DNA of 64,000 nucleotides from Aldrovandia affinis. Lineage: Eukaryota; Chordata; Actinopteri; Notacanthiformes; Halosauridae. The notes beneath the pieces were generated by a model, which was not told the origin of the DNA, made no database searches, and saw only the letters and a list, made by a program, of their open reading frames with translations. The stretch is taken from assembly GCA_029706075.1 (NCBI GenBank), contig JAINUG010000174.1, positions 1,302,001-1,366,000 of the forward strand, read 5' to 3'. This document shows, one piece after another, positions 45,052 through 52,205 of the stretch (positions are counted from its first letter, which is position 1; each line of letters opens with the position of its first letter). Made by a program: the position numbers and the translations under genes.

Positions 45052-45206
45052 AATATAATATATGCCATTTAGCAGACGATTTTATCCAAAGCGACTTACA
45101 GTAGTGAATGCATACATTTTCAGTATATGTGGCCCCAGTGGGAATTGAACCCACAATCTAAGTGTTGCCAACGCTGTGCTCTACCAACTGAGCCACAGAG
45201 AACCAC
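45052..45206 (-). mobile_element. tRNA-derived SINE with L2-type tail, complete
   Basis: On the minus strand the head runs 'GTGGTTCTCTGTGGCTCAGT', with an A box TGGCTCAGTTGG (plus 45,184-45,195) and a B box GGTTCAATTCC (plus 45,141-45,151) exactly 44 nt apart. The tail is 'TGTAAGTCGCTTTGGATAAA…GTCTGCTAAATGGCA'. The tRNA-like part is well kept, but there is no acceptor-stem closure or terminator of a working tRNA gene, and the L2 tail marks it as a SINE. Confidence 0.85.
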
Positions 45207-48493: not shown

Positions 48494-48795
48494 TTCAATC
48501 TCAACTTTCTCAACCGCCACCTACAAAGAGTGGAGATGTTCATGGTCAAAACTGGGAAAATAGTAAAATTCCCAAACCTATATGAAAGTCATGGTAGACT
48601 GTCAGTAGCTAACATCATAAAAATGATCCCAGGGCCTACCAGATTCACTGTCAACCATGTCCATGACTTACAATCGGCCTCACCCTGCCTGTGGTTCTCA
48701 GTGGTAAAACGTGCCAGGTGCCAGGCCTGTCCCTTTCATAATGACATCAAGACCAGCACCATATGTGTGAAATACAGAAATTGTATCTGTGAACA

Positions 48796-49107
<312 letters not shown>

Positions 49108-49639
49108 TGTCCATCATATGCAGTGTGACATAAGTAGGTGATACTTTATTACAGGTTGTGATAATCCTTTATAACTGTAAAAGACAGTCAAATGTATTTA
49201 TCTTGTTTAACATGATGGTTATTTACAAGACACGTTTTTTGGGGTAAAATATGTTTGAAAATAAATATTAAAGCAAATACTAATACATCGGTAGCAGCTT
49301 AATAATGCTATAATGACATCTAGAGTCATTTATGACACTATAATTTTAATAATTCTTATGCAATATTATTAATGGTATCAGTAATAATTATGAAATAACA
49401 CAAGTGTTATAATAATGGTTTAACATAAATATGCAATTATTGAAGTAATTGATAAGCTTAAGATTTAAATGATAGAAGGATGGGATTTTTTATACATTCA
49501 ACATTCAAAGAGCTTTCAGACTAAATGCTTTTGTACTTTTTATCAACTTTTTAATAGTTTTTATAAGTATCTATGCTTGCTCTCATAATGCAATTTACAG
49601 TTCCTTGTATTTTGTTGGCCGTTAGCCCTGATCAGTGGC
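49108..49639. other. Unassigned AT-rich sequence
   Basis: The part from 49,260 to 49,440 has many short ATAATG/CATTAT alternations, possibly from a decayed MITE. No ends were found. Confidence 0.35.
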
Positions 49640-51314: not shown

Positions 51315-51770
51315 ATTAATTACTCTTTTTTTTTTTTCTTCTTTTTTTAATGTTTCAGATTTTTTCCCTGTTTTTCTCACAATTTGGTAGCTAATTACAC
51401 CCTCTATTTGTTTCAGTTTACCCTCCCCCACAAGCCCGCCGCTCATCCTCGGAGTCAAGCCAGTTTTTCCTTACGGGGACGTCTTTCGTGCTTCTTGGCT
51501 TTCCCTCCCCCCTCCCTCTGGGGTGGTCAGCCAATCGCCGCCCCCGGTGAGGCTCTCGGCCAGAGCCGGGCTGGCTCAGCCAGGTTTTGAACCGCGGCCG
51601 CAGTGGCCAACATGCATTCGGGACAAATGCCTTTACCGCTACAGTGGCGTGGCCAGGATTTTCTGCATGTGGTGGCAAAGTGGGCATAATAAGAGCGTAA
51701 TAAGGGGCGGCAAAGTTGGCATAATAAGAGCATAATAAGAGGTGGCACCAGCCGGTGCTGTAGATGTAGA

Positions 51771-51947
51771 TGTAGCGGATGAGCTCTGGTACGTGAGCGT
51801 CCGCTACAGAATGTGTTGTCGATAACAGTGTGATTAATTGCCAGAGTTAAAGATTTGAGTCTTTAGCTCAGCGGGCTAAATCTCTTCCTTGTCGCGTGAA
51901 AATCCCTCGGTTCGAAACTTGCCGCGAGCAGAATCAACTCCGTTACA
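51771..51947 (+). repeat. 5' LTR of the TRIM
   Basis: 177 bp, TGTAGCGG…CCGTTACA. It opens with an inverted repeat (TGTAGCGGAT at 51,771-51,780 against TCCGCTACA ending about 51,808). Box A-like TAGCTCAGCGGG is at 51,864-51,875 and box B-like GGTTCGAAACT at 51,909-51,919, 45 nt apart, as in a tRNA gene. Confidence 0.88.
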
Positions 51948-51948
51948 T

Positions 51949-51966
51949 TGGTGCCGTGACTCGGAT
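51949..51966 (+). other. Primer-binding site, tRNA-His type
   Basis: TGGTGCCGTGACTCGGAT is 18 bases complementary to the 3' end of vertebrate tRNA-His (…AGTCACGGCACCA, from memory of tRNA sequences). It starts one base after the 5' LTR, the normal place for priming minus-strand DNA synthesis. Confidence 0.85.
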
Positions 51967-52016
51967 GCTACGACCGACGGTAATCGGTCGGGCCGCGGTT
52001 GCTGCCGCAGGAGTTT

Positions 52017-52028
52017 AGAGGGGGAGAA
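52017..52028 (+). other. Polypurine tract
   Basis: AGAGGGGGAGAA, twelve purines ending exactly at the 3' LTR, as needed to prime plus-strand DNA synthesis. Confidence 0.85.
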
Positions 52029-52205
52029 TGTAGCGGATGAGCTCCGGTACGTGGAGCATCCGCTACAGAAAGTGAGGTGGATAAGAGTGTGATTAGTTCA
52101 CAGAGTTAGAGACTTGAGTCTTTAGCTCAGTGGGCTAAATCGCTCTCTTGTCGCATTGAGATCCTCGGTTCGAAACTCGCTACGGGCAGAACCAACTCCG
52201 TTACA
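52029..52205 (+). repeat. 3' LTR of the TRIM
   Basis: 177 bp. The opening inverted repeat is better kept than in the 5' LTR: TGTAGCGGAT-GA-GCTCC pairs with GGAGC-ATCCGCTACA (a 15-bp stem with a 2-base bulge). Box A-like TAGCTCAGTGGG at 52,123-52,134 and box B-like GGTTCGAAACT at 52,167-52,177 are 44 nt apart. Confidence 0.88.

Follow-up and report, generated by a model that had tools for sequence, protein, structure and literature searches.

The locus raises the question of what kind of mobile element occupies positions 51771-52205 (plus strand) of the window, i.e., the whole 64-kb stretch of DNA that we have analysed, and by which machinery such an element could be transcribed and moved. The preliminary description took it for a miniature LTR retrotransposon (TRIM) whose LTRs contain a tRNA-like RNA polymerase III (pol III) module, and knew of no description of such a tRNA-like counterpart of the plant TRIM Cassandra in a vertebrate. 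This counterpart has been described: TRIMs with tRNA-like LTRs were named Helenus by Kojima 2024 (PMC10886601). The available text of that paper lists coelacanth, sturgeon, paddlefish and many ostariophysan fishes as hosts, and reports for animal Helenus 4-bp duplications, tRNA-His among the vertebrate primers, and tandem arrays. By its layout features and its A/B boxes the window element is a Helenus, that is, an element of a published kind and ordinary as such. Overall, we consider it to be an old Helenus-type TRIM with a putative pol III start, packaging in Ty3/Gypsy particles, priming by tRNA-His and a polypurine tract, and integration with 4-bp target duplications, a reading to which we give a probability of roughly 85%.

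Layout of the element and its family in the genome

The complete TRIM is 435 bp long, has the order LTR-interior-LTR and is without coding capacity. Its 5' LTR (51771..51947) and 3' LTR (52029..52205) are 177-bp direct repeats with TG...CA ends, and their local alignment shows 84.9% identity over 179 columns, with 25 mismatches and two gap openings. The non-coding interior between them (51948..52028, 81 bp) carries an 18-nt tRNA-His primer-binding site (PBS) that starts one base after the 5' LTR (51949..51966), and it ends with a polypurine tract of 12 bases that adjoins the 3' LTR (52017..52028). All of these features are on the plus strand, and both repeats and the polypurine tract are as the preliminary description had given them. 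The 5' LTR opens with a hairpin (51771..51808, plus strand), whose arms TGTAGCGGA and TCCGCTACA form a 9-bp inverted repeat (51771-51779 and 51800-51808). The opening hairpin is far more stable than shuffled sequences in both window LTRs (z -4.70 in the 5' LTR, where 0 of 200 shuffles were equally stable, and -5.94 in the 3' LTR). A hammerhead-type ribozyme in this hairpin was considered and rejected, as the Rfam search (E up to 5) returned three weak hits and none of them is a ribozyme. Just upstream of the element, at 51671-51740, there are two 35-bp head-to-tail copies (89%).

The preliminary description had proposed a genome search for a family with the same layout, and such a family has been found. 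Using the whole element as query, we have obtained at least 45 matches, some of which overlap within arrays, from 40 scored of 3505 first-look candidates in the 1.22-Gb genome; the interior gave at least 42 matches from 40 scored candidates. The exact 25-nt junction between LTR end and primer site occurs 143 times genome-wide, and its reversed control does not occur at all. We have read 19 copies, which were drawn from the best matches and are not a random sample; an array (L012) and a copy at a contig start (L027) were excluded. All 19 show the order LTR-interior-LTR and have GGGGGAGAA ahead of the 3' LTR, and the interior is 81 bp long in 18 of them. Exact 4-bp target duplications flank 13 of the 19 and 5-bp duplications none. 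The window copy is among those without an exact 4-bp duplication, together with five of the 18 others; its flanks, TAGA and TATA, agree at three of four bases, and its 15% LTR divergence could be the cause. The identity between the two LTRs of a copy ranges from 0.848 in the window copy, the lowest value, to 1.000 in seven of the 19, which indicates that the window copy is old and that some of its relatives are apparently recent.

The family also occurs as tandem arrays with a 258-bp period and 98% matches (TRF). The array at L012 consists of six LTRs and five interiors in alternation, with an LTR at both ends and CATG on either side, and the one at L057 consists of three LTRs and two interiors, with CGTG on either side. 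Two unusual arrangements were also seen: at L085:1450-1500 the 5' LTR before the primer site is apparently the opening hairpin alone, without the tRNA-like module, and at L078:867-1758 an inverted Helenus LTR lies 29 bp ahead of a three-LTR array. When the tRNA-like module alone was the query, 40 matches were listed, and all 30 that we have read lie inside a Helenus LTR. They comprise 18 entries from elements or arrays (some being the two LTRs of one element), 11 single LTRs and one interrupted LTR; six of the 11 single LTRs have exact duplications, and no separate SINE carrying the module was seen among the 30. That is, the dispersed family, the LTR-PBS-PPT-LTR layout, the 4-bp duplications and the single LTRs support the classification of the window element as a TRIM.

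The tRNA-like module and its transcription

On the plus strand, pattern matching places the A box at 51864..51875 in the 5' LTR and at 52123..52134 in the 3' LTR, and the B box at 51909..51919 and 52167..52177, respectively. The start-to-start distance from A to B is 45 in the 5' LTR and 44 in the 3' LTR, which agrees with the spacing given in the preliminary description. With an A-to-B distance of 20-60 bp, the strict pattern is confined to these two LTRs within the 64 kb, and 60 first-order Markov simulations of one strand yielded no instance of it; a looser pattern (A box plus GGTTC) also matches a SINE at 45195 on the minus strand. There, the minus-strand stretch 45059-45203 is reported as tRNA-Ala (ggc) by ARAGORN and as tRNA plus UnaL2 by Rfam, and we have read it as a tRNA-derived SINE with a UnaL2-type tail, not as a tRNA gene. 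A tail of this type would be in keeping with a vertebrate host, probably a ray-finned fish; a COX1 search yielded a single short match that contains stops. Elsewhere in the window, 48736-49133 is a long (CA)n/(TG)n microsatellite with open frames of His-Thr or Val-Cys repeats.

Among 38 family LTRs, the strict A box is present in six, two of which are those of the window copy, and a relaxed form in 36, while GGTTCGA is present in 33. Within the close family the conservation is 0.947 for the A box, 0.961 for the rest and 0.986 for the B box, so the A box is no better kept there than the rest. We have also compared nine LTRs of the chimeric loci described below with five main-family LTRs, among them both LTRs of the window copy. 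Between these subfamilies the identity is 96.0% in the B box, 86.5% in the A box, 90.0% in the 14 columns before the A box, 88.7% after the B box, and 77.9-81.5% in the remaining three regions. The preliminary description had suggested folding the module with a tRNA covariance model; the Rfam tRNA model gave no hit, either for the window element at E up to 5 or, at E up to 10, for 16 other loci. In addition, the module folds no better than its shuffles (z -0.10 and -0.21). The sequence data thus bear out the earlier claim of a tRNA-like pol III module as far as the boxes go, but the A box is degenerate in most of the family LTRs, and the resemblance does not extend to a tRNA model match. For comparison, the available text of PMC10886601 states that the published Helenus modules were identified by Censor and tRNAscan-SE and that many predict no working tRNA; pol III transcription of Helenus is unproven in that text, too.

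The degenerate A box in most LTRs and the missing tRNA model match would both suit an ordinary pol II TRIM in which the A/B boxes have no present function and are left over from an ancient piece of a tRNA or SINE, and so would the lack of a T-run terminator inside the LTR. We consider this reading unlikely, since neither a poly(A) signal nor a TATA-type box, searched as A(A/T)TAAA and TATA(A/T)A, occurs in any of the 38 Helenus LTRs, and since no other stretch is as well conserved between subfamilies as the B box. The same boxes are also kept in the published families, as described in the available text of PMC10886601. In the LTRs of other families that are joined to Helenus interiors (see below), AATAAA is present in five of seven copies, 66-93 nt before the primer site.

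T-runs of four are absent from all 38 LTRs and present in one of 19 interiors, but 894 of 2000 whole-element shuffles also lacked one, so this lack is not significant. Downstream, 18 of the 19 copies have a T-run in reach, the median distance being 113 nt, which is no closer than in the two control directions (121 and 115 nt). An avoidance of pol III terminators was rejected on these two grounds. Within the 3' LTR itself we have found no pol III terminator.

Pol III transcription of the element, which we infer from the boxes, is likely on balance. The RNA would start within the 5' LTR, a short way ahead of the A box, from an internal promoter formed by the A and B boxes; it would then continue past the end of the 3' LTR as far as a T-run in the flanking DNA. 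Such a read-through RNA would hold R-U5 twice and, according to the standard reverse-transcription scheme, should be usable for first-strand transfer.

Primer site and joins with other LTR families

At 17 of 18 positions the PBS of the window element agrees with the mature tRNA-His 3' end encoded by a tRNA-His(gtg) gene in the same genome, which bears out the primer proposed in the preliminary description; the form with 18 of 18 is the end of the vertebrate tRNA-His. The genome contains 16 near-matches to the tRNA-His 3' end, 12 of them with the version of the one gene read. A matching form of the primer site is found in Helenus copies L019 and L022 and in one element of the LTR_B family introduced below. 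Such sites are clustered on C2023 (eight on the contig; 943079-951281 and 1067081-1068258), and one of the clustered sites, L127, has been read and is a tRNA-His gene.

A second tRNA-His-complementary segment, the 9-mer GGTTGCTGC, lies at 51997..52005 (plus strand). It is the longest tRNA-His complement in the window interior outside the PBS, and a length of at least 9 was reached in 43 of 5000 base shuffles. It is present in 17 of the 19 interiors and in all five diverged interiors, and neither of two LTR_B leader fragments contains it; it is possibly an extended or two-part primer contact. In two further Helenus copies, on C2056 and C2200 (L129:337-395, and L130:332-379 on the reverse strand), the tRNA-His complement after the LTR extends beyond the usual 18 nt to about 37 nt, with two and three mismatches to the single tRNA-His gene read, and is followed by a normal interior from GGTTGCTGC onwards. 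These extended primer sites are possibly a fossil of copying past the usual stop in the primer tRNA. The two could have one common origin, or they could be an ancestral long primer site that was kept.

At eight loci, we have found three other LTR families joined to a Helenus interior at the tRNA-His primer site, with a Helenus LTR after the interior in every case. The first family, LTR_B, is joined in this way ahead of the array locus L024 on C2088. Among the matches listed (40 candidates scored) LTR_B occurs at 13 places, of which one runs into a Helenus interior, four end after the PBS, and eight end no more than four bases from the LTR end. Four LTR_B pairs are 6.4-7.6 kb apart, and a 2.3-kb internal piece of one element (L089) holds RNase H and then integrase, with Ty3 as the best solved match. 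This is the gene order of Ty3/Gypsy, and as judged from its sequence the LTR_B donor is a Ty3/Gypsy element. In three of four copies its PBS is identical to the Helenus PBS for exactly 18 nt, beyond which the bases differ; in the fourth copy the identity is broken by a substitution after 12 nt. LTR_B and Helenus also have similar polypurine tracts and a common TGTAGC start. The preliminary description had suggested looking for a Gypsy-type partner with the same LTR ends; chimeric insertions with such a partner do exist and the ends are alike, but the LTRs resemble each other only at these ends. One LTR_B copy, on C224, has TATG at both sides; among the other copies we have established no matching pair. 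The TATG before LTR_B on C2088 was dropped as a target duplication, because there it is part of LTR_B.

The second family, LTR_C, runs into a Helenus interior at five places (C902, C335, C1470, C557 and C1947; 40 candidates scored); of the other LTR_C copies listed, seven end inside the PBS and the rest end within about ten bases of the LTR end. Its own PBS has about 10 nt in common with that of Helenus. On C1992 a 5' and a 3' copy of LTR_C are separated by 11.5 kb, and the start of LTR_C was set independently from this pair; the element there is flanked by only CCTG/CCAG (3/4). With the start so defined, matching 4-bp duplications are found at three of the chimeras: CTGG (C1470), TGTA (C557) and TAAG (C1947). 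The third family, LTR_D, is followed by a Helenus interior and LTR on C224 and C2489. For the C224 chimera a CACA duplication fits, though the start of LTR_D was chosen partly by it. LTR_D with a Helenus-like interior occurs at 26 places among the matches listed (40 candidates scored), and we have read the two chimeras and five others (L093 and L110-L113). The five were not counted as independent chimeras, since in all of them the interior breaks off after its first 69 nt and gives way to one common 3' end. They are copies of a repeat ending in ...GGGTCAATACGGTA or close to it (in L093 at about 20-717), apparently captured and spread by another mobile element, for which a DNA transposon would be our guess.

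Certain chimeras continue beyond a single join. A polypurine tract resembling that of the donor stands before the donor LTR on C335 and C2088, which suggests that this LTR is the donor's 3' LTR, followed by two Helenus units. On C902, what comes after the Helenus LTR is a primer site with leader as in LTR_C elements (61 bp, 91.8%), so that donor interior stands after Helenus.

These joins suggest that Gypsy and Helenus may be reverse-transcribed in common particles, where plus-strand strong-stop transfer would link their cDNAs. In the mechanism we propose, Helenus RNA would be packaged in Ty3/Gypsy particles, tRNA-His at the PBS and the polypurine tract would serve as primers, and the product would integrate with 4-bp target duplications. 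Plus-strand strong-stop DNA would comprise a complete LTR followed by 18 nt templated by the primer tRNA. In a particle holding several templates with tRNA-His as their common primer, that of one element could pair with the minus-strand PBS of another cDNA. Each transfer would add the acceptor's interior and LTR, and repeated transfers would give donor LTR-Helenus, Gypsy-Helenus-Helenus, Helenus-Gypsy and pure Helenus arrays before integration. The extended primer sites of about 37 nt fit the primer copying in this scheme. The chimeras and the 18-nt PBS common to Helenus and a Ty3/Gypsy family give indirect support to a movement of Helenus by Gypsy. As for the more specific proposal that chimeras and arrays are built within one particle by strong-stop/PBS pairing, we regard the odds as about even.

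Alternatively, the chimeras and arrays could have formed after integration, by recombination between chromosomal copies and not in reverse transcription. Chromosomal recombination normally leaves no matching duplications, and the chimeras look like pre-formed insertions, since matching 4-bp flanks are found where the ends were defined independently, at the three LTR_C chimeras named above, although these are only three of the eight. Near-identical array units (98%, TRF) can expand by unequal exchange, but both the CATG and the CGTG array are bounded by duplications. It also speaks against recombination that the sequence which LTR_B and LTR_C elements have in common with Helenus at the junction amounts to only about 10-18 nt. 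In its favour remain the 5' end on C2489 and the far 3' end on C902, which were not found, and the reference LTR_C element on C1992 with its imperfect CCTG/CCAG flanks. On balance, we think that an origin after integration is rather improbable. Least of all can the 177-bp units be a satellite or a SINE resembling LTRs, a reading that has the 258-bp tandem period on its side and that we reject as highly improbable, since an LTR-interior-LTR order is found in all 19 copies and exact 4-bp duplications in 13 of them, LTRs and interiors take turns in the array read, which has an LTR at both ends, and single LTRs have exact duplications in 6 of 11 cases.

Relation to known systems and implications

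Our literature search on Helenus retrotransposons and LTR-11_DR has returned only PMC10886601. The Helenus fish group represented by LTR-11_DR, which amounts to 5575 LTRs in zebrafish, resembles the window family in its tRNA-like LTRs (TRGCY...YGG and GGTTC), tRNA-His primer, 4-bp duplications and tandem arrays, the kinship being one by description in the available text (PMC10886601). In the same text, the Gypsy partners of animal Helenus are inferred from PBS similarity only, and a word-stem search of it finds no chimeras. Cassandra, as far as the available text goes, shares with the window family the TRIM size, the arrays and an internal pol III promoter in the LTRs, which is inferred in our case; on the other hand, its promoter derives from 5S rRNA and not from tRNA, and its terminator lies in the 5S part of the LTR (PMC7215508); in the window family no terminator was seen there.

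The closest parallel to the chimeras is found in the complex LTR insertions of Triticeae (Sabot and Schulman 2007, PMC1950507), which, according to the available text, have one duplication pair and are attributed to co-packaged RNAs, as we propose here. The switch described there takes place between R regions of similar elements, whereas here unlike LTRs meet at the PBS. In the available texts of the literature searched (PMC1950507, PMC7215508 and PMC11899658), no PBS joins between a TRIM and other families are described, and the chimeras joined at the primer site thus seem to be the new and testable part of this work. For tandem LTR arrays, the available text of PMC11899658 leaves open whether they originate by recombination or by retrotransposition.

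If the proposed mechanism holds, a TRIM would be linked to its helpers by the common tRNA primer and not by LTR similarity, and one TRIM could be served by several Gypsy families. Chimeras with one duplication pair would be physical traces of a TRIM and larger elements having been reverse-transcribed together, and the position of the junction at the PBS would offer a testable route to tandem LTR arrays.
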